Origin: Gammaproteobacteria bacterium
GTDB lineage: Bacteria; Pseudomonadota; Gammaproteobacteria; Chromatiales; Chromatiaceae
Direction of reading: 5' to 3'
Assembly: GCA_009929855.1 (NCBI GenBank)
Contig: RZZN01000016.1
Location: forward strand, 1-64,000
Length of the DNA: 64,000 bases
Both the position numbers and the translations under genes were made by a program. Of this stretch, positions 85 to 14,083 are shown one piece after another (the first letter of the stretch is position 1; each line of letters opens with the position of its first letter). Under the pieces are notes generated by a model, which did not search any database, was not told the DNA's origin, and saw nothing but the letters and a program-made list of their open reading frames with translations.

Positions 85-933
85 TCAGGCACTAGTTAGC
101 AAGACTGACTGTGCATTGGTGGGCTCGTTGGATGCTAATTGCATTGCGCGCAAAGTTGCCCTGTACTTTACGCACTGAAAAATCCCACGAAATATCTCTG
201 CTTCAGACACATTACTGCCTTTAACCTCAATTGCCAAACAAGAAACATCATTTTTCAGATAAACATCCAGGCTGTCGCCAGAGCTAAGGTTGTATTCATT
301 TTTTCCTTTAGGAAATTTTCCATAGCGGGAGAAAAACTTCGGATTGTTGGCAGCCCACTTTTTTAATGACTTATGCTGAGGACTCTCCGGATAACCGCCT
401 GCTACTTTAGGCATGCGAGGCAGTTTGATAGGGTCATCCTTATCTGCATCAACAAGAACAGACACCGGCTTTAATTGCTTAAAACCAAAGTACAAAGCAA
501 CCTTGTCCCAATAAATGTAGTCCCATACGAATTCCATCACTTCTTCAGCCATGCCATTCCGGTTGGCCTTGGTCATATTTTTCTTATAGTGCTTTTTAAA
601 ATAACGCTTAATAAACCCATCCACTCCGTCACCGGGAAGATGGGTTTGTTGGTTTACAACTATTCCGTTCACGGGAGGAACTTCGACACCCCATTCATCA
701 GACAGCTTTTCCATCATGTGGCCGATCTTGCCAACAGGCCAGCCATAGAGAGTCATGCGTGTCTTAATTTCCTCACCATGCCGTGCATTTAACTCTTCGG
801 CCAGCTGCTTGTAGGTAATGGTGCTGCCGTTCTTTGCTGCCCACAAAATAACAGGAAGCGCCAATCTTGCTATATGACTACCCCAGTTTTCGCCGTCGTC
901 AAAATACTCTTTAGCTGAAAATTCATCGCTCAT
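85..933 (-). CDS. PD-(D/E)XK nuclease-like protein, last gene of the six-gene DNA-processing/methylase operon
   Basis: 282 aa. The C-terminal third carries a restriction-endonuclease-fold signature: an acidic strand (SLDVYL, about residues 220-226), then EVKG (about 235-238), then a helix with Q-x-x-x-Y (QCVKY, about 250-255), the usual spacing of PD-(D/E)XK enzymes. The N-terminal half has a helix-turn-helix look (YKQLAEELN) and many basic residues, so it may bind DNA. Its ATG overlaps the TGA of the upstream methylase by 4 bases (ATGA), implying translational coupling. The gene is clearly more AT-rich than its neighbours, a sign of separate acquisition. It ends soon after the Q-x-x-x-Y helix, so it may be slightly truncated. 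The nuclease fold is seen in motifs only; the substrate and the link with the methylases are inferred. It is far too small for HsdR and has no helicase motifs. Confidence 0.75.
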   Translation of the reverse strand: MSDEFSAKEYFDDGENWGSHIARLALPVILWAAKNGSTITYKQLAEELNARHGEEIKTRMTLYGWPVGKIGHMMEKLSDEWGVEVPPVNGIVVNQQTHLPGDGVDGFIKRYFKKHYKKNMTKANRNGMAEEVMEFVWDYIYWDKVALYFGFKQLKPVSVLVDADKDDPIKLPRMPKVAGGYPESPQHKSLKKWAANNPKFFSRYGKFPKGKNEYNLSSGDSLDVYLKNDVSCLAIEVKGSNVSEAEIFRGIFQCVKYRATLRAMQLASNEPTNAQSVLLTSA

Positions 934-2453
934 GTGTTTTTATTCTCTATCAATAAGCCATCTAATGTTTCAGCCAATGAATCCATTTGCAACCAGAATG
1001 ATCTTCCGTCAGCTTGCCACTGATCCCATGAAGATTGCAGCGATACAGCGTCGCCATTGCTGTCGGTGGCAACTGCTGCGGCAATGCGCTTCACGTACAG
1101 CGGGATCGACAGGTTGCCCGCATTGGCGCCGATTTCGGCCAGGGTAGCGACCTTGGAAAAACCGGGCACATCCACAAAGGTCTTGTAAGCATCGAGAATG
1201 CGCTGCTGGTGCTCAGGCTTAAGAAAGCTCTGTGCCCGTTCCCTAGTGACCTCGTTCACCGCGTCGATGAAGATCACCTTGCCCTGGCGTGCGGCAGTCT
1301 TCTTGCGGTTGCAGATCACGATGCACGACTCCATCGGGGAGTTGTAGAACAGGTTGGGGCCCAAGCCGATGACGGCCTCGACCCAGTCCTGCTCGACCAT
1401 CTTGGCGCGCATGGACTGTTCTTCGTTGCGAAACAGCACCCCATGCGGCCAGAGTACGGCGCAGCGCCCCTTAGCGGTGAGGCTGGTCAGGATGTGCTGC
1501 TGGAACGCATAGTCGGCGCGACCCTGCGGCGGCGTGCCCAGTGAGTTGCGGCCCCACTTGTCACTGCCCCATGCCTCGCGGTTCCACTGCTTGATGGAGT
1601 ACGGCGGGTTGGCCAGGATCACGTCGAACTGGCGCAGGCGGTCGCCTTCGATGTGCTTGGGGTCGGCCAAAGTGTCGCCCCGGATGATCTCGAAGTCCTC
1701 CACACCATGCAGGAACAGATTCATGCGGGCGATGGATGAGGTGATGAGGTTGCGCTCCTGCCCGTAGAGCTTGAGCGTCCGGAACTCGCCGCCCGAGCGC
1801 TTCACTTCGTCCAGCGCCGAGATCAGCATGCCACCCGTGCCGCAGGTGGGGTCGTAGATTGACTCGCCCGCCTGCGGGCTGAGCAGTTGCGTCATCAGGT
1901 GGACGACGGTGCGGTTGGTGTAGAACTCGGCAGCCGTGTGGCCGGAGTCGTCCGCGAACTTCTTGATCAAGTATTCGTAAGCGTTGCCGAGTTCGTCCTC
2001 GGGCACATTGGCCACCGAAAGCGTCTGGGTGGAGAAGTGCTCGATGAGGTCTTTCAGCGTTTCGTCGGGCAGGCGTTCGCGGTTGGTCCAGGGGGCGTCG
2101 CCGAAGATGCCGTCGAGCAGATCCGGGTTGGCGGTTTCGATGGCGCGCATGGCCTTCTGAATGGCCGCGCCGACGTTTTTTGGTGCCTGGCGTACATCGT
2201 TCCAGTGAGCGCCTTGGGGGATCTGGAAGCGGTGGTTCTCCGCAAACTGGGCATAGGAGAGGTCGCCATTGGAGTTGGCCAGCGCCGCCTGGTATTCCTC
2301 CTCCCAAACATCCGACACGCGCTTGTAGAACAGCAGCGGGAAGATGAACTGCTTGTAGTCTCCCGCATCGATGAGGCCGCGCAGCAGCACAGCGGCACCC
2401 CAGAGGTAGCTTTCGAGTTCTTGTTGGCTGATGCGTTTGCCTGGGTGACTCAT
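930..2453 (-). CDS. Type I restriction-modification-like N6-adenine DNA methyltransferase (HsdM family), second of a tandem pair
   Basis: About 507 aa with the HsdM layout: a helical N-terminal domain (residues 10-150), then the N6-Mtase domain with SAM motif I DPTCGTGG (about residue 203) and catalytic motif IV NPPY (about 280). Both are intact, so the enzyme should be active. I place the start at 2453 rather than 2462: that ATG overlaps the TGA of the previous gene (ATGA) and sits 9 bases after a GGGGG Shine-Dalgarno run. The stop overlaps the nuclease start by 4 bases. It aligns with its upstream neighbour along most of its length, so the two are paralogues. No HsdS specificity subunit is visible, so how it finds DNA sites is unknown. 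Confidence 0.9.
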   Translation of the reverse strand: MSHPGKRISQQELESYLWGAAVLLRGLIDAGDYKQFIFPLLFYKRVSDVWEEEYQAALANSNGDLSYAQFAENHRFQIPQGAHWNDVRQAPKNVGAAIQKAMRAIETANPDLLDGIFGDAPWTNRERLPDETLKDLIEHFSTQTLSVANVPEDELGNAYEYLIKKFADDSGHTAAEFYTNRTVVHLMTQLLSPQAGESIYDPTCGTGGMLISALDEVKRSGGEFRTLKLYGQERNLITSSIARMNLFLHGVEDFEIIRGDTLADPKHIEGDRLRQFDVILANPPYSIKQWNREAWGSDKWGRNSLGTPPQGRADYAFQQHILTSLTAKGRCAVLWPHGVLFRNEEQSMRAKMVEQDWVEAVIGLGPNLFYNSPMESCIVICNRKKTAARQGKVIFIDAVNEVTRERAQSFLKPEHQQRILDAYKTFVDVPGFSKVATLAEIGANAGNLSIPLYVKRIAAAVATDSNGDAVSLQSSWDQWQADGRSFWLQMDSLAETLDGLLIENKNT

Positions 2454-3952
2454 TTCAGCCATCCCCCTTCAGTCATGACCTGCGCAAGCCGTTCTTCGGC
2501 CTCGCGGCAGCGGGTGAGCGCATCCTTGAACGCAGCGATCGCGTCGGGCAGCGGCGGGATGTCTTCTTGCAGAGGTGGCAAGACATAGCGCGAAATGTTC
2601 AGCGTCCAGTCCTCGGCTTTGATCTCGTCGAGGCTGACCACCCGGACCGCGTCCTGCACATCGGCAAAGCCGCGATACCAGTCGAGGATCTCGGCGGCGT
2701 GCTCGGGCTCTAGATAGTTCTGTGCGCGGCCCCGGCGGAACAAGCGCGACGCATCGGCGATCAGCACCTTCTTCTTGTGCTTGACCGGTTTGCGCTTGCG
2801 CAGCACCAGGATGCACGCCGCCAGCCCTGTGCCGTAGAACAGGTTGGGTGCCAGCCCGATCACCGCCTCGACCAGATCCATTTCCAGCAGCTTCTGGCGG
2901 ATGCTGCCTTCCACCCCCTTGCGGAACAGGGCGCCCTGGGGCAGCACTACGGCCATCCGGCCGCTGACGTCGGCCATCGACTTGACCATGTGCTGCACCC
3001 ACGCGAAGTCACCGCTGGACGAGGGCGGCAGACCGGCAAAGTTACGGCCGAAAGGATCGTTCAACCACAAATCCTCGCCCCACTTTTCCAACGAGAACGG
3101 CGGATTGGCGATGACGCAGTCGAACGTAGCCAGCCGATCGACCTCGAAGAAGGCCGGATTGCGCAGCGTGTCGCCACGCACCACCTGGAAGTCTTCGATG
3201 CCGTGAAGGAACAGGTTCATCCGCGCGATGGATGAGGTGGTGAGGTTCTTCTCTTGCCCGTACAGCTTGCCCCACAGCCGCTTCACGTCGCCGTGCATTT
3301 CTTTGACGTGCTGCACGGCTGCCAGCAACATGCCACCGGTACCGCAGGCTGGGTCGTAGATAGTCTCGGCTTCTTTGGGATCGAGCATGTCGATCATCAG
3401 CCGAACCACGCTGCGTGGTGTGTAGAACTCGCCAGCCTTCTTGTTGGTGGCGTCGGCGAACTTCTTGATCAGGTATTCGTAGGCGTCGCCAAGCAGATCC
3501 GAGTTGACGTTCTTGTTGCCGAACGGCAGCTTGGAGAAGTGCTCGATCAGGTCCTTGAGCAAGGCATCCGACAGCCGCTCCTTATTGGACCACTGGGCAT
3601 CGCCGAACACGCCGTACAGGGTGTCGGGGTTGGCCTTCTCGATCTCACGCATCGCGCGTTGTAGTGCGGTACCGACATTGCTGGCCTTGGTGCGAACGTC
3701 GTTCCAGTGGCAGTCTTCCGGGATCTGGAAGCGGTGCGACTCGGGAAACCATGCAAGCTGCTCGTCGCCGGTCTCATCAACGATCTCCTGGTACTCCTCG
3801 TCCCACACGTCGCAGATACGCTTGAAGAACAGCAGTGGGAAGATGTAGGTCTTGAAATCGGCCGCATCTACCGGGCCGCGCAGAATATTGGCGGATTCCC
3901 AGAGGTGACCTTCGAGCTGGCTGAGGGTGATTTGTTGGTCGCTCAAACGCAT
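2450..3952 (-). CDS. Type I restriction-modification-like N6-adenine DNA methyltransferase (HsdM family), first of a tandem pair
   Basis: 500 aa, with the same architecture as the following gene: helical HsdM N-terminus, motif I DPACGTGG (about residue 203) and motif IV NPPF (about 281). Having the two catalytic motifs at nearly the same residue positions in neighbouring genes supports a tandem duplication followed by divergence, or a heterodimeric pair. The gene lies 59 bases after the DprA-like gene and overlaps the next methylase by 4 bases. HsdM proteins transfer methyl from SAM to adenine N6 and normally need HsdS to recognise DNA; none is encoded here. Activity is likely from the motifs; partnership with the DprA-like and RecQ-like proteins is inferred from the operon. 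Confidence 0.9.
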   Translation of the reverse strand: MRLSDQQITLSQLEGHLWESANILRGPVDAADFKTYIFPLLFFKRICDVWDEEYQEIVDETGDEQLAWFPESHRFQIPEDCHWNDVRTKASNVGTALQRAMREIEKANPDTLYGVFGDAQWSNKERLSDALLKDLIEHFSKLPFGNKNVNSDLLGDAYEYLIKKFADATNKKAGEFYTPRSVVRLMIDMLDPKEAETIYDPACGTGGMLLAAVQHVKEMHGDVKRLWGKLYGQEKNLTTSSIARMNLFLHGIEDFQVVRGDTLRNPAFFEVDRLATFDCVIANPPFSLEKWGEDLWLNDPFGRNFAGLPPSSSGDFAWVQHMVKSMADVSGRMAVVLPQGALFRKGVEGSIRQKLLEMDLVEAVIGLAPNLFYGTGLAACILVLRKRKPVKHKKKVLIADASRLFRRGRAQNYLEPEHAAEILDWYRGFADVQDAVRVVSLDEIKAEDWTLNISRYVLPPLQEDIPPLPDAIAAFKDALTRCREAEERLAQVMTEGGWLK

Positions 3953-4011
3953 GGCCCTTCTGTATCGATGCCGTCACACCGCGGCTTGTTTTCTTGTTTG
4001 GTCTTCATCGG

Positions 4012-5421
4012 TTACTCGAACAGCCGTTTTTGCTTGACGACGTAGCCCGCAGGCTTCTTCTGTTTTTCCAATACACCTTCGTCGATCAAGCGCTGCAACC
4101 ATGCCTTGGCCTGAGCGTTGGATACATCCAGCGCAGCTGCCACTTCGGCGTCCTTCATCGGCGCACTCAAGAGTTGCTGAATCGCTGCGCGCACGGCAGC
4201 GAAGAGCACTTCGGCAGGGGTCGATTCCGGCTGCGCAGGTTCCTTGGCCTCGGCTAGCGGCGCCACCGCCTCTGGCGTGACTGGCGGCAGTTCTTCCAAT
4301 GCCGTAGCGGGTGGCTGCGCATCGGAAACAATGTCGACCGGTGCCGATGGCTCGCTCCCGGCCTGAGGCACTGGCGCGGCGTCGCCTGGCACGGGCGCCG
4401 TTGGCTTGGCATCAGCCGACGTTGGCTCTTCGTTCGAAAACAGCCCAAAACCAACCTGTGGGGATGCCGTCGGCGTTGGCATCGCCACGTTGAACACGTC
4501 CTCGAACGAATCCACGTCTTGCGGGTTCGGCCAGGGAAGTGCGCCTTTCTTGCGCAAACCATCCAATCCTGCGGAAGACTCGCCCGTCGATCGAATGAAG
4601 ACCGGGACAAATTTGAGTTTGTCGAGCTGCTCGACAGCACCCGCCCAAGTGCCGCCCTTGTTGAGGTCGGAACTGACCACCAGTGAGGTGTCTGCCAATG
4701 CATAAATCAGCTTGTTGCGCTGCATGGCATTGCCGACGTTGAACCCGGCGCTCGGGTCGTAGGGTGAAATCAGCACCAATTGGCCATCGAGCAATAGGTT
4801 TCGGTGCTCGCGGTTCATGGTGGTCTTTTCCAGACTGTCCGCCAGAACGCCACAGACTTTGCCTCCACCCTCCAAGGCACCACGCATGGCGGCCTGATCG
4901 ATACCTCTGGCGCCGCCCGAGACAAGCGTTCTCCCTGCTCGAGCGGCGAGTCGGCCAATTGCCATCGTGTATTCGATCAGGGAGTCGTCCACGTGACGCG
5001 AGCCGACGACGGCAAGTCCACCGGACTCCAGCAGACTCATATCGCCACAGCCATAAATGACCGCAGGAGCGTCTTCGCGCAGCCGGGCTTTCAATCGCCT
5101 GGGATACTCGGCATCGGCTCGGCTGACCACCCAAATGGCGCGCGCTTGCCAGCGCTCGATCACTTGGCTCAGCAGGAATCCGCGCCCCAACAGTTTCTCC
5201 AGCCGGCTCTCGTCAATCACCGGTTGGCACGCGCGTAGGATCTCAGCTGCGTCCGGGGACACGAGATCAGCAGGCTGACGCTGGATCTCGCGCAAGTGGC
5301 GGGCGAGACGTTTGTATTCACCAGGCGAGAGCAGATCCGATGACGCAGTGCCACGTCCGGCAATGAGCGGCGCCGTCAGCAGCAGGATCGCCTGGGTGTT
5401 GGGAGAGAGGACTGGCGTCAT
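4012..5421 (-). CDS. DprA/Smf-like Rossmann-fold protein with long Ala/Pro-rich linker and C-terminal winged helix
   Basis: About 469 aa. The core (residues 100-300) has DprA/Smf features: VGSRxxD (about 137), SGGARGID (about 167) and a QRNKLIxAL segment (about 232), but it departs from competence DprA between these motifs. A low-complexity Ala/Pro/Glu linker (about 312-405) leads to a winged-helix domain at the end. DprA proteins bind single-stranded DNA and load RecA; the same fold occurs in SLOG-type nucleotide-sensing proteins. I choose the ATG at 5421, which overlaps the TGA of the RecQ-like gene (ATGA); an upstream in-frame ATG at 5490 would overlap by 73 bases. The genomic context differs from housekeeping dprA, so a role in a defence-type locus is more likely. 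That role is inference. Confidence 0.85.
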
Positions 5422-7496
5422 TCGTCGTGCCCCGTTTGTGAGAGGGCCATCGGCCAAACCGCGCCACTGCCGCTTTTGCGCAGCAGCCATGCAGACACCG
5501 TCAGCGTCCAGCGCGAATCGACCATGTCATCCACCAAGAGGACTGGTCCGGGAGGAATGGGCTGACCGTTGAGTGCGAGCGAGCCATCAATGTTGCGCGC
5601 CTGTTGCGTACTGTTTGCCATCGTTTTTTGTTCGGGCCTTGCGTCTGTTTTTGCGATGACCATATGAAACGGCAGACCCAGCGCAGCAGCCAAGCGTTGC
5701 GCGAAATTCGGCACCAATTCGGGATGCCGAAGCGAAGGAACGCAGGTCACCCAGGTCGGGCTCGGCTGCGGATTCCACTCCTGAATCATCTTCACGCACG
5801 CAGCAACGAGATCATCGGAAAAGTGGCCGTCGTGGTATTTGCCCTGCCTAACCAGGCCGCCCCAACCGGCATCGCCCCAGACGCAGAGCGCATTGCCGGA
5901 TTCGGCCTGGTGGGCAGGGGCGATGAATCCCTTGACGCCGTACCGGGGCATTCCACCATCGGGCCATTTTTTCCGGGGCTCGATGGGCAATCTGGTTCGA
6001 CGAAGAAATTCGACGGCGGCTTTGACCAGTTCGGTATCCACGGTTGCAGGCAATGGCGGTAAGGCAGGCTCTGTGACAACACTTGGATCGCCGTCGAGCG
6101 CACTAATCAAAAAGCCCATGTGCTCACCAAACAGCAGGCTGACGTAGTCCTGCATCTGCTGGTGCTCGTCTCGCCGTAGCGCGGTGAGGCGTTCCGCTCG
6201 ATCCCAGAACGCTTCACTCAGCGTTGCCGCCGTGAGCTGCCACTTGCTGCCTTGCTTGGCGATGGGCGCCGGCGCTTCGAGGGAAAGCAGTGCAATCGTC
6301 TTGTCGACACGTCCTTTGCTCAGATTGACTCGGCTCAGCAGCTCGGGGACAGACAGCCCATTGGGCTCGTCTTCAAGCGCTCCCAGGACGTCGGCAACTT
6401 CTTGTCGGGTCGGGAAGGCACTCCGGATAAACCAGTCAGTGATGTCAGACTCTTCCTGACCACTGAGGAGTACTCCATACGCGGAGTCCAGTGCGCGTCC
6501 CGCGCGACCAACTTGCTGGTAGTAGGCGACGACCGATCCCGGCATTTGGTAGTGGATGACAAACGCCAAATCCGGCTTGTCGTAACCCATGCCAAGTGCC
6601 GTTGTGGCAACCAGCGCTTTGACTTGGTTGTTGAGCAGCGCCTGTTCAAGCTGTTCTCGGCGATCGCCGGTTTCACCTGTGTAGGCTTCCACGTTGAAGC
6701 CTTGGGTCTTCAGCCATTGCGCAACTTGATTGGCATCACGAACCGTCAGCGTGTAGATGATGCCGTGGCCCTGCAGCGTGGCCAGTTGTTCTGCCAGCCA
6801 GGCAAGGCGCTCGGCCTGGCTGGGTAAGCGGATCGTTTGCAGCGAAAGCGAAGTCCGATTCAAGTCGCCACGCGAGACATCCAGTTTCGGGCCCAGCACG
6901 GCAGCAAGGTCCTCCATCACGCGGTTATTCGCTGTTGCCGTGGTGGCGAGCAAGCGCAGGTTTGGCGGCAGCGTCTTGACGATCCGCTCCAGCAGGCGGT
7001 AGTGAGGACGGAAGTCGTGGCCCCAGTCGGAAATGCAGTGCGCTTCGTCGATGACCAGCATCGAGATCTGTGCGGCGATGCCGGCCAGAACCTGCGTGCG
7101 GAAGCGCTCGTTCGCCAGGCGCTCCGGCGAGATCAAGAGAATGTCGATCTCCCCCTTGGCCAGTTTGCCCTCGACTGCCGTCCAGTCGTCCATATTGTCG
7201 GAGTTGATGGTGGCTGCGCGAACCCCCATCCGCTCTGCCGCTGCGATCTGGTTTCGCATCAGCGCCAGCAGCGGCGAGATCAACAACGCAGGGCCGGCTC
7301 CGGCTTCCCGCAGCAACTTGGTCGCGATGAAGTAGACAAAGCTCTTACCCCACCCGGTCTTCTGCACGACCAGCAAGCGGCCTTTGCCTTCGACGATGTG
7401 ACGAATGGCATCTTCTTGGCCGTCGCGGAAAGTGGCATCGGCGCGTCCGGAGCCGATCCGGAGCAGTTCCAGCGCGCGTTTTGGGTCGTAGGCCAC
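5418..7496 (-). CDS. RecQ-like superfamily 2 helicase fused to a C-terminal ComF-type phosphoribosyltransferase domain
   Basis: 692 aa. Helicase motifs are clear: Walker A TGWGKS (about residues 46-51), DEAH followed by [11 protein letters not shown] (about 150), and QQVGRAGRA (about 330). The zinc-knuckle region expected in RecQ is present in outline but its cysteines are missing. After a winged-helix-like stretch the last 120 residues form a phosphoribosyltransferase domain: a QQxxN segment like that of ComFC, and the PRPP loop LLVDDMVDS (about 655). Starts at GTG 7496, one base after the stop of the gene before it, and overlaps the DprA-like gene by 4 bases. ComF proteins act with a helicase and DprA in DNA uptake, so this fusion beside DprA looks like a rebuilt competence processing unit. 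Biochemical activity of the PRTase part is not assured. Confidence 0.9.
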
Positions 7497-7497
7497 G

Positions 7498-7935
7498 TTA
7501 TTGCTCTCCCTTGTTTTGGTCGGGCGAGCGGTAGCCCGGCGCCAACACAGCGTTCTTGACGCCGTACAGCGCCAGGTGATCTTTCAGCCAGAGCCTGAAT
7601 TCGTAACCGCGAAGACTGTGGTCCGGAGAGCAGTCCACACTCCACTGCCGCAAGATGTATCCGGCGGTGGCAGCACGCAGCTTCATCCGCAGTGACCCAC
7701 GAACCATGCCGTAGTCCATCTCCGTAATTTCAGGACGGGGCTGGTCCGGGTGCGGCACCAACTCCAGCTCGACGATCCGGGTCCAGTGGATGTCTTGATC
7801 GCTCATTTCATGGGCCGCCAGTGGCTGGCCCTTGAGGACGATGGGGTGGCTGATCCGAGTGATGACGACCTTTCGGTTGGGCAACCCGCTTGAACGATTG
7901 TCCGATTTTCGAGGTCCGGGATCGTCATCGGCCAT
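7498..7935 (-). CDS. Hypothetical protein, first gene of the RecQ/DprA/methylase operon
   Basis: About 145 aa from the ATG at 7935. I do not recognise the family. The chain is mixed alpha/beta, rich in charged and aromatic residues, with no signal peptide, membrane segment or metal motif. Its stop is separated by one base from the GTG of the RecQ-like helicase, so it belongs to the same transcription unit. The start is uncertain: an ATG at 8011-8013 overlaps the stop of the preceding giant sensor gene, giving 171 aa, and a third at 7806 would give 102 aa. None has a good ribosome-binding site. The first 26 residues of the longest form look unlike protein, which is why I prefer 7935. Confidence 0.6.
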   Translation of the reverse strand: MADDDPGPRKSDNRSSGLPNRKVVITRISHPIVLKGQPLAAHEMSDQDIHWTRIVELELVPHPDQPRPEITEMDYGMVRGSLRMKLRAATAGYILRQWSVDCSPDHSLRGYEFRLWLKDHLALYGVKNAVLAPGYRSPDQNKGEQ

Positions 7936-8009
7936 AAAGTTGAGCGCGTCATCATGGTCGGGGGATCCGATCCGCGCTGGACAATCCATGATCCAGTGCA
8001 GCGAGCGCC

Positions 8010-11000
8010 TCATCGAAGCAGCTCGGCGATGCGCGCGCAGGTTCCGGCGAACACCTCGATCGGCTCTGGCCTCGCGAAATAGTATCCTTGGGCGTAGCGA
8101 AAACCCATCCGTCGCAAGAGCCGCAGCTGCTCGGCGGTCTCGACCCCTTCGGCCACGACCTCGATGTCGAGACTCTTCCCGATGGCCAGCATCGCCTCGA
8201 CCAATGCGCGATCATTGCCATCCTCGGTCATGTCGCGCACGAAGCCCTGGTCGATCTTCATGCAATCCACCGGGAAGTGTTTCAGATAGGACAGGGATGA
8301 ATAGCCGGTGCCGAAATCGTCGAGATAGACCAGAAACCCCTCAGCGCGGACAGCGGCCAACCAGGTCTTGGCGCGGTCGGTGTCTCCCAGGAACACGCTT
8401 TCAGTGATCTCCAGCGCCAATGATCTTGGTGGAAAACCCAGCCGACGCGCCGTCTCGCGCAGCAGCGCCGGGGGTAGACCATCGGGGATCTGACGGCCCG
8501 AGACATTCAACGAAAAATAGAGGTCTTGCCCCCAGGTCCGACAGGCGACGATCTGCCGGCCGACGGTTTCCAGGATCCAGTGACCGATCTCGTTGATCAA
8601 TCCGATGTCTTCGGCCAGCGGGATGAAGCTGTCGGGCCTGACCATGCCATGCTCGGGATGCCGCCAGCGCAGCAGTGCCTCGGCGCCCGCCAAGCGGTTT
8701 TCCCGCAGATCGATGATCGGTTGGTAGAAGAGGACCAGCTCCTGTTGGGGCAGCGCCAGGCGCAGATCATTCTCCAACCGCCGACGTTGCTCGGCCGCGG
8801 CGGCCAGTGCCCGGTCGAAGACACGGATCTCGTTGCCACCCTCGGCCTTGGCCTGCACGAGCGCCAGGTCAGCGTTCAAGAGCAAGGCCGAGATCTCGCC
8901 ATCGGCGTCGCGCGGGAAAAAGGCCATGCCCAGACTGGCATGCAACCTCAGCCCGGTGCCGCCGATCGGATACGGCTGGCGCAGGGCGACCAGGAGTCGT
9001 TGCGCCAACAGTCGGGCATCGTCAACCGGCTCGAGATTGGGCACGGCCAGGGCGAACCGATCGGCCTCGAGTCGCGCGACCAGCGCGTCTTCCGGCACGA
9101 TGGCCGTCAGCCGATGCGCGATCGTCTTGAGGACGCTGTCGCCTGCCGGCATTCCGAATCCGTGATTGATCCGCTTGAATTCATCACAGTCCAGGATCAT
9201 GAGCGCGAAACCGTCCAGTTCCTGGCGCTCGCAGGCTTGCGCCAGCTCGCGCACCCGCTGCTCGAAACCGGCCCGGTTGGCGATCCCGGTCAGCCGATCG
9301 ATGGTGGCGAGCTGCAAGGCCCTGGACTCATTCTGCACGATGGATTGGCGCAGCCGCAGGTTCTCGATGGAGACCGCCATGGGTCCACAGAGCATCGACA
9401 GGATGTCGATCCGCTCGGCGGTGAAGGCGGCTCGCAACAGCCGATTCTCCAACGCCAGGAAGGCCGTGACCCGCCCTTGCAGCAGGATCGGCAAGGCCAT
9501 CAGGGCGCAGCGCGCCAAACCCGCGAAATGCGGATCGTCCCTGAACCGACTGTCGATGACGGCATCATCCGAGATGATCGGCAGACGGGTATTGAGCCCG
9601 AGCTGAAAGACCCCGCTCGAGATGATCCCGCGCTCGGTGGCCGCCGCCAGGCTCATCGGCTCCAGCCGGTCTTGGCCGCGCAATCCGCCCGCCAAGCGCC
9701 AGGCTCCGGTCTCCTTCTCGATCAGCAACCAGGCATCGGTCGCCCCGGTCAGTTGTCCGACCAGGGCCATGACCCGCTCGGCCAGACGCTCCATCGAGGT
9801 CTCCGCCGTCAAGGCACGCGAGGCCCGCAGCAGCGCCTCGTGATCGAGCGCGTCGGCACGCTGGTCGCCGAGTGACGAGACCCGCACGGTATCCAGGACA
9901 GCGAGCCCCTCGCGCATCGCCTGTGTCTTGCCGTGCGCACCCCATCTCAGATAGAGGGTATGGGCCCGCGCCAGCAGCGCCCGCCCCGCATGGTCTTGAC
10001 CGTGACGCTGGTGAAAGCGACCCGCGCGCTCGGTGATCAATGCCTCGTGCCAGGGACGCTGGTGAGCACGCGCCCGGCGCATGGCCTGCTCGAAGGTCTG
10101 CAAGGCCGCCCAAGGCTGCTCGATCAGATCCAGCCGTTCGGCCTCGACCAGGTCATGGAGATGCGCGAAATTGACCGGCGCCGCGGCGGCGCGCTCCGCC
10201 AGCCAGGTCTGATGCAGGCTCAAGGTCTCCAAGAGTCGGGCGGCCTCGGTCGCGCCCGCGGCCGCGCGGATCTGGCCGATGAGTGCCAGCGCGCGCAGCA
10301 GGTGGGCCAGCGCGGAGGGATAAAAGCAGGCAATGTGTGGGGTGAGCGCCATCCCTGCCTCGGCATGCCGGATCAGACTCGCCTCCTCGTCGAAGAGCGC
10401 GGCGGCCAAGGCCCGGTAGATGTGGAAATAGGCTTGCGCCATGGCATTGCGCGCGATGTCGGCTTGGTGTGCCGTCTCAGTGAATTCGGCGTCATCGAAA
10501 CAGCCCGGTCGACTGGTCTGTCCGGCCAGTGCGCGCAGCAGCTGCCTGAAGCTGAGGAAGGATTGCTCGGCGTGCCGATTGCCTGTCTTGGCCGCGAAAC
10601 CCAGTGCCGCATCGGTCTCCGCCCGCATCGTCTCGAGCTGGGCGCAGGTATCGAGCAGCGCGGGCTGGGTCGTGAAAAAGGTATAGCAGCCCAGCTCCAG
10701 ATCGCCGCCGCGCAGACAGCCATCGAAGGCGGCGCGAGCATGGTCGATATCCTCGTTCAGTGGATTGAACCAGTGGCTGTTGAGCAGGCCGAATTGCTGA
10801 CGGGCGCGCGTGGTCTCGATCCCCGGCGCGCGCGCCTCTCCGGCGGCCAAGGCCATGCGGGCGGCCTGGTAGCCGGTCGCATAGTCGTTGCGGAATGCGG
10901 CGGTGCCGACGATGACCGAGCTGGCTGGATACAGGATGGCGGCGCAGAAGCCCTGCTCGATGGCCAGCCGCAGGGCCCGCAAGGCCACCCACAGGGCCAG

Positions 11001-13742
11001 CATCGGCTGATCGAAAAAGGCCGCCGGAATGACACGATTCATCAAGGCGGCGGCACCCAGGAGTCGCTCATCCGTCATGGGCGCGCTCTCGGGCAGGCGC
11101 TCCAGTGCGCCATCCGCGGCATGACGGTAGAAGGCCTCGATCTCCTGCTCCAGATGGGTCGTCAGATCCGCTTGCGGCAAGCCGACCCCCAGTCCATCCA
11201 GCATGGTGCCGGCGAGGCGGACCGCGTCGGCATAGCGGGTCCGATTCGACAGACTGGCAATCTGGATACCGGCGGATTCCACGAGCTGCACGGGCTCTCG
11301 GGCATGCGCCGCCAAGCGCGCGTAGACCTCGTCTGACTCGGCATGACGCGACAGACAGTAGAGCACCCGATGGAGCTCGACATGGAGGCTCAAGGCCGCG
11401 GCGGGCTGTTGCTCCCAGGCCTGGTCAGCGGGCGTGTCCGGACTCGTCAGTTGGTCGATGGCCAGGCGCAGAAAATGCTCGGCCGCGGCATAGGATCCAG
11501 CCAGACGGGCCTGCCGGGCGGCATCGCAGCAGAGCTCTCGGACACGCTCGCTCTCGACCGGCTCGAGGATCAAGGGTGCCGCTGCCGCATAGTGCTCGGC
11601 GGCGCTGAAGCGATGGTCCGGCGCCTCGCCGGCCAGCGCCAAACGCCTCGCCATGGCCAGATGGATCTGCTGGCGCTGCTCGCGAGCGCGCAATCGGTAG
11701 GCCGCCTGCTGCATCCTGTCATGCGCGAAGCGCACCGAAACCTCGGGATCGGCTCGATCGAAGCGGACGGCATGGGTGGTCTCCAGGACGCCCTGCTCCA
11801 GTGCCTTGGTCAGCTCGCGCGCGAGATCCGCCGCCGTCCTGCCGGTCGCCAAGGCGAGTCGACCCAATGTCCAGGCATGGCCCAAGCCGGCGGCCGCGAC
11901 CAGCAGATCGGCCACCGGCTCGGCCCATTCGGCCAGGCGCTCGGCGAGGAAATCGACGACGTTGGCGCTGACCGGGTAGGCGGCGATCGCCTCGGCATCC
12001 CAGCACCAGCGACCCTGACGCGGATCCGGCCAGAGTACGCCATCGTCGTGGAGGCGGTGGATCAGCTCGATGGTGAAGAATGGATTGCCGTTGGTCTTGG
12101 CAAAGACGCTGCTCGCCAGCGGTTGCGCCTCGTCCGGAGAGATCCTCAGCATCTCGGCGAGCAGGGTGTCGAGGTCAGCTCCAGTCAGGCTGGCGAGGGT
12201 CAGGGCAAGCGGCGGCTCGCCACTGGCGGTCGGCTGACGCAGGAGGCGCAGCAGCGGATGTTCGGCCTCAACCTCCTGGTCGCGATAGGCCCCGATCAAT
12301 AGCAGTCCGCTGAGCTCAGCGTCCCCCAGCACGTCAGTGATGAACTGCAAGGACGGCGCATCGGCCCATTGCAGGTCATCGAGAAAGACCACCAGTGGAT
12401 GATCGGGCCCGGCAACCACGCGTATGAGCGCGACCAAGAGTGCGCGCAGGCGCAACTGGTCCGCGATGGGCTCCAGCTCGGGTACGGGGGGGAGTGGACC
12501 CAGAAGCATCGCGAGCTCGGGGACGACCGCGAGCAGCGCGGCGGCATCCGATCCGAGGCCGGCCAGGATCCGCTCACGCCACTGGTCGACCCCTGTCCAG
12601 GGATCAGCCAGCAAGAGCTGGCAGAGCTGAGCCAGACTCCGCGCCGGAGCAAGGAAAGGGCGATCGGGCTGAAACTGCTCGAACTTGCCATGGATCATCA
12701 GACCCCGCCGTACGCTGACCGAGCGATGGATCTCTTGAATCAGTGAGGTCTTGCCGACGCCGGAATAACCGGCGACGAAGAGCCCACGCACGCCGCCTTT
12801 GGTCACCTCATCGAAGGTCGCCAGCAGGGTCTCAAGCTCGCGGTCACGCCCGTAGAGTCGGTGCGGAGGGCGTGGCGCGAGCGGTAAATCGCGGGTTTTC
12901 AGCTGGATGAGTGCCAGTGGCCGACCCTCGGCCAGCGCGAGACGCAGCTGACCCAGATCATGCGCCAGCCCCGCCGCGCTCTGATAACGCTCGTCCGGCT
13001 CCTTGGCGAGCAGCTCGAGGATCACCTCGGCGACGCGCGGATGCAGCCAGGGCGCGCGCTCCTGCGGTGGCTGCGGTGGGCGGGCCAGATGGGCATGCAT
13101 CAGCGCCAGCGGATCGGACTCATCGAATGGCGGGGTCCCGGTCGCCAGCGCATAGAGTGTGGCGCCCAGCGAATAGAGATCGGTGCGATAGTCGACCGGC
13201 CGATTCATCCGCCCGGTCTGCTCGGGGGAGAGATAGGCGGGGGTGCCGAGCACGCGATCGGGATGGGTGAATTCGGGGTGCTCATCGGCAAAGGTGGTGG
13301 CCAGATCGAAGTCGATGATCTGGACCTGCCAATCGTCCGGCCGGATCAAGAGATTGGTTGGGTTGATGTCTTTGTGGATGATGCCGCGCCCGTGCAGCGC
13401 CGCGAGCTGCTCAGCCAGCGCCTCGGCGATGCCGAGAAAGGTCTTCAGATCGACCCGGCCAAGTCGACCGGACTGCTCCAAGGTGACGCCACCGAAATCA
13501 GCGACGGCCAGCCCGTCGCCATCGAAGCGCACCAGCCGCGGCAAACCGGGGATCGTCAGCAGACGTTGCAGGATGTCGATTTCGTGATCCAGCGCCCCCC
13601 GGCCGGCATCGGCATTGCCCCATGCCTGCTTGACGATGAGCGGACCATGCACGGGATCGACCGTGCGCATGACCCGATGACTCAACCCCTGATAGATGAG
13701 GATCTCAGGACTCTGCCGAGGATCTTGATCCACACGATCCAT
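8010..13742 (-). CDS. Giant multidomain sensor: Ser/Thr kinase-like, AAA ATPase, helical repeats, GAF, degenerate GGDEF, EAL
   Basis: About 1910 aa. In order: a protein-kinase-like domain with HKDINPTN (about residue 122) and DFD in place of DFG; a predicted AAA/STAND ATPase with GYSGVGKTSL (about 326); roughly 800 residues of helical, TPR-like sequence; GAF (about 1310-1460); GGDEF (1475-1645), where the signature reads LEADR so cyclase activity should be lost; and EAL (1660-1900), where EALLR, LEITES, DDFGTGYSS and AEGVE are intact. The likely output is cyclic-di-GMP hydrolysis, controlled by ligand binding and perhaps phosphorylation. The protein is probably cytoplasmic; no membrane segment is obvious. 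Start is uncertain: 13742 and 13769 are both possible, 13928 less so. Its TGA touches the accessory operon, which runs in the same direction. Confidence 0.88.
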   Translation of the reverse strand: MDRVDQDPRQSPEILIYQGLSHRVMRTVDPVHGPLIVKQAWGNADAGRGALDHEIDILQRLLTIPGLPRLVRFDGDGLAVADFGGVTLEQSGRLGRVDLKTFLGIAEALAEQLAALHGRGIIHKDINPTNLLIRPDDWQVQIIDFDLATTFADEHPEFTHPDRVLGTPAYLSPEQTGRMNRPVDYRTDLYSLGATLYALATGTPPFDESDPLALMHAHLARPPQPPQERAPWLHPRVAEVILELLAKEPDERYQSAAGLAHDLGQLRLALAEGRPLALIQLKTRDLPLAPRPPHRLYGRDRELETLLATFDEVTKGGVRGLFVAGYSGVGKTSLIQEIHRSVSVRRGLMIHGKFEQFQPDRPFLAPARSLAQLCQLLLADPWTGVDQWRERILAGLGSDAAALLAVVPELAMLLGPLPPVPELEPIADQLRLRALLVALIRVVAGPDHPLVVFLDDLQWADAPSLQFITDVLGDAELSGLLLIGAYRDQEVEAEHPLLRLLRQPTASGEPPLALTLASLTGADLDTLLAEMLRISPDEAQPLASSVFAKTNGNPFFTIELIHRLHDDGVLWPDPRQGRWCWDAEAIAAYPVSANVVDFLAERLAEWAEPVADLLVAAAGLGHAWTLGRLALATGRTAADLARELTKALEQGVLETTHAVRFDRADPEVSVRFAHDRMQQAAYRLRAREQRQQIHLAMARRLALAGEAPDHRFSAAEHYAAAAPLILEPVESERVRELCCDAARQARLAGSYAAAEHFLRLAIDQLTSPDTPADQAWEQQPAAALSLHVELHRVLYCLSRHAESDEVYARLAAHAREPVQLVESAGIQIASLSNRTRYADAVRLAGTMLDGLGVGLPQADLTTHLEQEIEAFYRHAADGALERLPESAPMTDERLLGAAALMNRVIPAAFFDQPMLALWVALRALRLAIEQGFCAAILYPASSVIVGTAAFRNDYATGYQAARMALAAGEARAPGIETTRARQQFGLLNSHWFNPLNEDIDHARAAFDGCLRGGDLELGCYTFFTTQPALLDTCAQLETMRAETDAALGFAAKTGNRHAEQSFLSFRQLLRALAGQTSRPGCFDDAEFTETAHQADIARNAMAQAYFHIYRALAAALFDEEASLIRHAEAGMALTPHIACFYPSALAHLLRALALIGQIRAAAGATEAARLLETLSLHQTWLAERAAAAPVNFAHLHDLVEAERLDLIEQPWAALQTFEQAMRRARAHQRPWHEALITERAGRFHQRHGQDHAGRALLARAHTLYLRWGAHGKTQAMREGLAVLDTVRVSSLGDQRADALDHEALLRASRALTAETSMERLAERVMALVGQLTGATDAWLLIEKETGAWRLAGGLRGQDRLEPMSLAAATERGIISSGVFQLGLNTRLPIISDDAVIDSRFRDDPHFAGLARCALMALPILLQGRVTAFLALENRLLRAAFTAERIDILSMLCGPMAVSIENLRLRQSIVQNESRALQLATIDRLTGIANRAGFEQRVRELAQACERQELDGFALMILDCDEFKRINHGFGMPAGDSVLKTIAHRLTAIVPEDALVARLEADRFALAVPNLEPVDDARLLAQRLLVALRQPYPIGGTGLRLHASLGMAFFPRDADGEISALLLNADLALVQAKAEGGNEIRVFDRALAAAAEQRRRLENDLRLALPQQELVLFYQPIIDLRENRLAGAEALLRWRHPEHGMVRPDSFIPLAEDIGLINEIGHWILETVGRQIVACRTWGQDLYFSLNVSGRQIPDGLPPALLRETARRLGFPPRSLALEITESVFLGDTDRAKTWLAAVRAEGFLVYLDDFGTGYSSLSYLKHFPVDCMKIDQGFVRDMTEDGNDRALVEAMLAIGKSLDIEVVAEGVETAEQLRLLRRMGFRYAQGYYFARPEPIEVFAGTCARIAELLR

Positions 13743-13750
13743 ACCTGTGT

Positions 13751-14083
13751 CTACTTGTCGGCCCACCATTCTACGAGATCCCGAATCCGGCCAACAGGTG
13801 CCGAAGGGATTGGCCGACCGCGCCGTCGAGTCTCGACGCGGCCATCGCGTGACTCTGCGCGTCGGGGGGCCGGAATCAGGGGTCTGGCTTGATCCTGCCC
13901 ATGCGGACGCCGCAGCTTGTCCAACCACTCAGGTGGGGCCGCACGGCGAGCACGCGCCAGCATGATCTGGCGCAAGCGCGCGCGGATCTGCTCTAAGGGC
14001 AGATCTTGGGCGGGATCGATGACCTTGGGGATGGCCCAGTCGCCGCGACACCCAGCAGGAGCACACTCATCAATGCATACCAA
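13751..14083 (-). other. Possible small open frame in the 250-base gap before the giant sensor
   Basis: A 110-codon frame overlaps the 3' end of the membrane-protein gene and ends just before the giant sensor's start. Its middle (about residues 25-60) is amphipathic and Arg/Leu-rich with an EWLDKLR segment, which reads more like protein than a random GC-rich frame. No ribosome-binding site or family was recognised. It may be a small gene, a frameshifted extension of the membrane protein, or chance. Confidence 0.22.

Follow-up and report, generated by a model that had tools for sequence, protein, structure and literature searches.

A PsyrTA toxin–antitoxin pair at the head of an interrupted type I restriction–modification operon: a probable composite defence locus in a gammaproteobacterium

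At the start of contig RZZN01000016.1 of a gammaproteobacterium of the Chromatiaceae (assembly GCA_009929855.1), a compact row of minus-strand genes encodes a RecQ-like helicase, a DprA-like protein, two HsdM methyltransferase subunits and a nuclease-like protein, which raises the question of whether these genes form one undescribed DNA-conflict system or are known modules brought together. The window considered here is the whole 64,000-base stretch that opens this contig (C357 of a 414-contig genome), so that its left edge is an assembly break. An earlier, sequence-only reading favoured a single new six-gene system. The evidence set out below argues that the locus is, in all probability, a composite defence operon built from two known modules, PsyrTA and a type I restriction–modification (R-M) system, for which a layered action is proposed. 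The assignment to DNA conflict thus stands, since both halves are known defence modules, and a likely false 'new system' is removed for this window. The components themselves are ordinary; the part worth keeping is that the embedding of PsyrTA in modification-based operons recurs. The features of the locus are:

1–94, no strand: end of a multi-copy insertion sequence that disrupts the nuclease-like gene and causes the assembly break; contig ends of a second type carry its terminal inverted repeat too
85–933, minus strand: putative accessory PD-(D/E)XK-like nuclease gene, C-terminus cut by the insertion sequence; restriction-fold motif invariant in six aligned sequences
930–2462, minus strand: hsdM (second), type I adenine methyltransferase subunit; PF02384 3e-89, PF12161 6.2e-22, PADLOC MTase_I; NPPY and CGTGG motifs
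2450–3952, minus strand: hsdM (first); PF02384 1.2e-98, PF12161 1.3e-24; NPPF and CGTGG motifs
3953–4011, no strand: 59 bases joining the PsyrTA and type I R-M modules; similarity to Solimonas (91.5%) stops at 3956
4012–5490, minus strand: PsyrA (RqlI-like), DprA-family antitoxin, likely start at 5421; PADLOC PsyrA 4.5e-142, PF02481 3.2e-35
5418–7496, minus strand: PsyrT (RqlH-like) toxin, RecQ-type helicase with a C-terminal phosphoribosyltransferase (PRTase); PADLOC PsyrT 1.4e-281; Walker A, DEAH and phosphoribosyl pyrophosphate (PRPP)-loop-like motifs
7498–8013, minus strand: WYL-domain regulator remnant; tblastn 86% over residues 177–301 of a Solimonas protein (L104)

The packing of these six open reading frames (ORFs) is much as first described. 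The nuclease-like ORF overlaps the second hsdM by four bases, with the ATG at 2453 as start the two hsdM genes likewise share a 4-base overlap, a third joins the DprA and RecQ genes if the internal ATG at 5421 is taken as the DprA-gene start, and a single base (7497) separates the RecQ gene from the ORF upstream. The run is not gapless throughout, however, as 59 bases lie between the DprA gene and the first hsdM, and this gap marks the joint of the two modules.

Profile searches bear out the family calls of RecQ-like helicase, DprA and two HsdM proteins, together with a PRTase whose Pfam match is weak alone (0.0077, below the cut-off). The helicase matches PsyrT of PADLOC over residues 2–691, near full length, and the product of the overlapping gene matches PsyrA, also near full length. 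By these matches the RecQ–PRTase and DprA proteins are identified as PsyrT and PsyrA (RqlH and RqlI), a known anti-phage toxin–antitoxin pair, and the description of the set as undescribed lacks support. According to the accessible text of the RqlH/RqlI study, RqlH toxicity acts via the PRTase domain and is controlled through RqlI binding, and rqlH often occurs without rqlI, especially in Gram-positives (PMC4670107); neither 'restriction' nor 'hsd' has a match in the main text of that paper. PsyrT is present at E 1e-60 or better in 20 of 210 genomes of the order, the source genome included, and PsyrA adjoins it in 18 of the 19 other loci, the remaining locus being cut by a contig end. None of these 19 loci carries a tandem hsdM of the window's kind or the nuclease gene near PsyrT, and at one of them (L039) a different type I system surrounds PsyrTA. 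The PsyrT of Sinorhizobium meliloti Ak57 (pSymB, a symbiosis replicon; L185) is 85% identical to that of the window; no PsyrA gene is annotated beside it, yet a PsyrA-like ORF is detectable.

The closest comparison is with Solimonas sp. SE-A11, in which a 3,848-bp block carrying PsyrTA is 91.5% identical to window positions 3956–7803 (blastn). The match breaks off at 3956, a few bases short of the point (3952) at which hsdM of the window begins, and in Solimonas PsyrTA is followed by an unrelated hsdM-hsdS-hsdR set whose HsdM is only 27% identical to that of the window. Evidently, the PsyrTA unit has been exchanged between restriction operons.

The second module is recognizable from the two HsdM proteins, which are 52% identical to each other and both possess N6_Mtase and HsdM_N domains with the expected motifs. 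A homologous operon on contig C8 of the same genome has the order hsdM-hsdM-(AlbA_2/Schlafen-type gene)-hsdS-hsdR, its first hsdM running to near the contig end, and the window's pair belongs to a family of type I R-M systems in which hsdM is doubled in tandem. Close relatives of the second HsdM occur in 12 of the 210 genomes of the order, the source genome included. Both hsdM genes are found in 8 of 11 other loci of this family (L212, L217 and L218 being without the first hsdM in the DNA examined) and hsdS in 10 of 11, the misses falling mostly at contig ends. These loci differ in what precedes hsdS: an AlbA_2/Schlafen-type gene adjoins hsdM or hsdS in five of the 11, hsdM is followed directly by hsdS in L214 and L216, and the remainder have other ORFs or end there. 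The family is thus one of type I systems whose operon has a slot of changing content ahead of hsdS, which the nuclease-like gene appears to fill in the window. PsyrT, PsyrA and the nuclease gene were found in none of the 11 other loci (tblastn, 1e-20). The AlbA_2/Schlafen-type gene (C8:8000–20005; L009 6778–8664), a second accessory of the slot, carries a RecG-like C-terminal ATPase domain, and small ORFs in some slots are PIN-like as judged by eye.

The occupant of the slot, whose gene is not intact, contains a GD..D...E.K core and a following Q.VKY motif that are invariant in six aligned sequences; the core motif lies before the insertion point. We take this combination to be a PD-(D/E)XK nuclease signature, and the product of 85–933 is read as a PD-(D/E)XK-like nuclease, a call already made by the sequence-only reading and upheld by the motif. 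The protein has no significant match in Pfam, NCBIfam, PADLOC or PDB, and one homologue has a sub-threshold match to Tox-REase-9 (0.00063). Homologues are rare and scattered, being present in two of 209 other genomes of the order, one of 368 others of the class and seven of 72,556 plasmids. Five of the seven plasmid loci were viewed. In one, the homologue is flanked by genes for a restriction endonuclease and a methyltransferase; a second has a methyltransferase nearby, a third has Abi and restriction genes nearby, a fourth has no annotated R-M neighbours and the fifth is unannotated.

Neither hsdS nor hsdR is visible in the window, as was reported from the outset, but this is an edge effect, because the window begins at a contig end. 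Window bases 1–94 have 14 matches in their own genome, counting the window itself; two are partial, and no fewer than six fall at contig starts. The opposite type of contig end, with the same terminal inverted repeat as the window end, is found at 17 places. Since the terminal inverted repeat is common to both, the two types of contig end are read as the two ends of one insertion sequence. The element sits inside the nuclease-like gene, to which it supplies the last residues and an apparent stop. Two other contigs of the genome, C35 (with hsdS) and C23 (with hsdM nearby), begin with the same element end as the window.

All 17 flanks of the opposite end were tested as the continuation of the locus, with a profile built from six nuclease homologues. 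Contig C159 is the only one on which a matching 2-base target duplication goes together with a long open extension of the nuclease-like gene, and its profile score is the highest (184.9 bits, to position 278 of 288). On this contig the continued nuclease gene overlaps the start of hsdS, hsdR begins two bases after hsdS, both genes are open and both products pass Pfam. The HsdR of C159 shares 69.7% identity with its C8 counterpart and no more than 33.3% with three others, in a comparison of five of the genome's seven HsdR matches (all but those on C35 and C50). Those seven N-terminal matches (C8, C20, C35, C50, C159, C179 and C291) themselves point to many type I R-M loci in this genome; C159 is not among the hsdM-like DNA matches of the genome.

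The other 16 flanks were set aside. C409 scored second (181.0 bits, to position 267) and is without the target duplication; C326, third with 179.7 bits, and C182 share the duplication, but the profile reached only to 262; C344 does not continue the reading frame. Outside this series, C35 was rejected as it begins with the same element end as the window and so marks another insertion, and C40 and C50 have no end overlap with the window. Two considerations temper the choice of C159, namely that a 2-base duplication is weak alone, being shared by C326 and C182, and that the gain in profile score over the runner-up is only 3.9 bits. Nevertheless, the combined evidence strongly indicates C159 as the continuation, and this contig very likely holds the missing half of the locus with hsdS and hsdR. 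An insertion sequence at a contig end can thus hide hsdS and hsdR from view. The R-M part of the window is most likely an ordinary type I operon with PsyrTA at its head, cut at the contig end by the insertion sequence, an outcome that the sequence-only reading had itself named as one that would overturn its proposal.

Upstream of psyrT, the ORF at 7498–8013 is homologous only to the C-terminal 125 residues of a Solimonas sp. SE-A11 protein of 301 residues. The whole protein sits directly upstream of psyrT in Solimonas and carries a WYL domain (PF13280, 1.2e-12) at residues 121–186; by this alignment the window's ORF is a regulator remnant that has lost its N-terminal part and most of the WYL domain. 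WYL regulators of BREX (bacteriophage exclusion) and CBASS (cyclic-oligonucleotide-based antiphage signalling) systems are described in the portion consulted of a study of embedded defences (PMC12255303). Directly upstream of the remnant, on the same strand, 8010–13928 encodes a 1,972-residue protein with protein kinase, AAA ATPase, GAF, GGDEF and EAL domains, and by coordinates the stop of this gene overlaps a possible start of the remnant ORF.

A wider set of 103 PsyrT loci was surveyed, comprising the best 80 of 592 PsyrT relatives in species genomes, the 19 from the order and four plasmid loci, the first of the plasmid matches. Many of these loci are truncated at contig ends, L042 duplicates L152, and L146/L156 and L150/L175/L186 are kin. 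In the best 80, simple matching finds HsdM-, HsdS- or HsdR-like genes in 10 loci, PsyrA in 71, the regulator in one and the nuclease gene in none. When modification genes (HsdM, HsdS, HsdR, PglX, HmaB and HmaC) are counted by profile within 5 kb, 19 of the 103 loci are positive, 12 of them for type I R-M; by source, these are 16 of the best 80, one of the 19 from the order and two of the four plasmid loci. All 35 modification ORFs within 5 kb, a count that includes genes in two pieces (L039 and L112), lie on the same strand as PsyrT and none on the opposite strand, compared with two and one, respectively, at 5–10 kb. Outside this count, an MmeI-like combined methyltransferase–restriction protein lies 50 bases after PsyrTA at 7404–10994 of L041.

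The arrangements themselves are varied. The order hsdM-hsdS-psyrT-psyrA-hsdR is found on an Escherichia coli plasmid and also in Vibrio furnissii and Providencia heimbachae, and in three related loci no more than 17 bases separate PsyrTA from hsdS on one side and from hsdR on the other. An Acinetobacter BREX locus reads pglX-psyrT-psyrA-DUF262-pglZ, and the order hmaB-psyrT-psyrA-hmaC occurs in three Hma loci (L132, L146 and L156), two of them from Pseudomonas and one verrucomicrobial. Among the immediate same-strand neighbours scanned, the Pfam family seen most often upstream is Methylase_S (4 of 55), and the lead downstream is shared by five families of type I R subunits or related helicases (4 of 42 each); these tallies cover 55 of 66 upstream and 42 of 56 downstream neighbours, the duplicate L042, a PsyrA fragment and anything shorter than 150 residues having been left out. 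In a quick tree built from 95 PsyrT proteins the modification-linked loci are spread over several deep branches, and the label 'modification gene near' changes 15 times across 20 positive and 31 negative rows with enough flank, a figure obtained without a shuffle control; when only type I and BREX/Hma rows are compared with each other, clustering as strong arises in 27 and 33 of 500 shuffles. In E. coli, a block of hsdS, psyrT, psyrA and the start of hsdR is present in 53 of 5,426 complete genomes (at least 99% identity and at least 80% coverage), with 54 chromosomal sites and one on a plasmid; among the 12 of 54 records listed, one is interrupted by an insertion sequence. The annotation of the block in NZ_CP124405.1 (3042051–3048005) includes ISEc52, an element of the IS3 type, as well as a 'ComF family protein'.

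Recurrence of the complete set, proposed as a check on the six-gene idea, is not seen in the sets of loci compared here, whilst a looser link of PsyrTA with modification-based operons does recur. A layered mode of action is proposed for the composite operon, the genes of which would be co-transcribed. HsdMa and HsdMb, perhaps as a heterodimer, would be guided by the C159-encoded HsdS to methylate adenine in a bipartite site, and the C159-encoded HsdR would translocate and cut unmodified foreign DNA. The PD-(D/E)XK-like nuclease gene would occupy the variable slot between hsdM and hsdS as an accessory, now broken by the insertion sequence. As a second layer, the DprA-like PsyrA would restrain PsyrT, a RecQ-like helicase with a genotoxic PRTase domain, until infection, blocked restriction or single-stranded DNA left by restriction drew PsyrA away, freeing PsyrT to arrest the cell. 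A plausible trigger coupling the layers would be single-stranded DNA or ends, arising from phage replication or HsdR cutting and bound by the DprA-like protein. The related idea of DprA as sensor and PRTase as effector is raised in the section available of an earlier article (PMC9122126).

Several observations weigh against this composite reading. No modification gene lies within 5 kb at 84 of the 103 PsyrT loci. PsyrT is present on 13 plasmid records, and of the 12 viewed (H14, a near-copy of H12, was left out) only two show embedding; eight plasmid loci, one archaeal and seven actinobacterial, have no PsyrA, HsdM, HsdS, HsdR or PglX by profile. The accessible part of a metagenome survey reports PsyrTA as underrepresented in defence islands overall, although within a defence island it is significantly co-localized with other defence families (PMC10924106). 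PsyrTA of strain NILS69 gave no detectable protection in the conditions tested, according to the text available of that study (PMC12409345). Finally, PsyrTA stands beside tandem hsdM in one of the 20 PsyrT loci of the order, that is, only here, and for this reason the two modules may simply be neighbours.

This last point underlies the strongest alternative, in which two unrelated defence modules came by chance to lie side by side in a defence island and share at most a promoter. Such an adjacency is a serious contender, if somewhat less than evenly probable. The Solimonas block, beside its own unrelated R-M system and ending just short of the window's hsdM, speaks for it, as does the uniqueness of the PsyrTA/tandem-hsdM adjacency within the order. 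In three close relatives (G117, G101 and G184) whose PsyrT is about 92% identical, the DNA that could be inspected shows PsyrTA without an adjoining R-M gene, G117 having an HsdR-like ORF 6.7 kb away on the other strand; G101 and G184, however, place the locus close to or at the end of a contig. A strand bias of this degree would be surprising among unrelated island neighbours, and it is the 35 same-strand modification ORFs within 5 kb, against three at 5–10 kb, together with the close fit of PsyrTA between hsdS and hsdR in the three related loci, that disfavour chance. A bolder version of the composite operon makes PsyrTA a general plug-in back-up for modification-based defences (type I R-M, BREX and Hma) that has entered them repeatedly, with the DprA-like antitoxin acting as a sensor of single-stranded ends or of a failing host system, whereby defeated restriction releases the PRTase toxin. 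As a general rule this is doubtful, but PsyrTA inside such operons, notably in the E. coli hsdS-psyrT-psyrA-hsdR block, suggests a testable idea of what triggers it.

A further possibility is that the locus is a decayed defence island without any working unit, its regulator truncated, its nuclease broken and its hsdS and hsdR parted from the upstream promoter by the insertion sequence; the WYL remnant and the insertion-sequence end inside the nuclease gene speak for this. It is unlikely, given that the reading frames of hsdMa, hsdMb, psyrT and psyrA, like those of hsdS and hsdR on C159, are open and that hsdM and psyrT have the motifs expected of them. The single six-gene system, for all its tight packing with three 4-base overlaps, is highly improbable and was dropped for non-recurrence and on the finding of hsdS and hsdR genes of the right family in the same genome: the PsyrTA and tandem-hsdM modules occur apart (the set at none of the 19 other PsyrT loci of the order, the nuclease gene at none of the best 80 of 592, and neither PsyrTA gene nor the nuclease gene at any of the 11 hsdM loci), and of the six genes one is a remnant and another is interrupted.

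The embedding of toxins in R-M operons is a known theme, of which a PsyrTA instance was not seen in the literature searched: within that mostly open-access PsyrTA literature, as far as its accessible text goes, no description of embedding in type I R-M or BREX was found. It may already be in print; the original embedding paper is reportedly that of Payne and colleagues, which PMC11411939 cites. RecQ, DprA, PRTase and PsyrTA have no match in a 2026 BREX survey (PMC12839542). From the parts consulted of the respective papers, DarTG2 lies between hsdS and hsdR of a type I system in enteropathogenic E. coli, where the concept of 'guilt-by-embedding' is put forward (PMC12255303), PrrC is embedded in the type I system EcoPrrI (PMC12707154), and TgvAB of V. 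cholerae lies inside or beside hsd genes (PMC11411939).

In comparison with PsyrTA/RqlHI, the window's pair consists of the same two proteins in the same order, with the helicase and PRPP-loop-like motifs present, but it is joined to a type I R-M operon, whereas rqlHI of extraintestinal pathogenic E. coli strain F11 is, in the text available, a stand-alone two-gene operon (PMC4670107). The likeness to type I R-M in its tandem-hsdM form lies in the HsdM_N and N6_Mtase domains, the hsdS and hsdR of the probable continuation C159 and the second copy on C8; the family differs from type I R-M at large in its two hsdM genes and the variable accessory slot before hsdS. With DarTG2, PrrC and TgvAB the window shares the placing of toxin or second-layer genes inside or beside hsd genes, although the toxin is a different one. 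The slot of DarTG2, between hsdS and hsdR, is also that of PsyrTA in the E. coli, Vibrio and Providencia loci, whereas in the window PsyrTA instead precedes hsdM.

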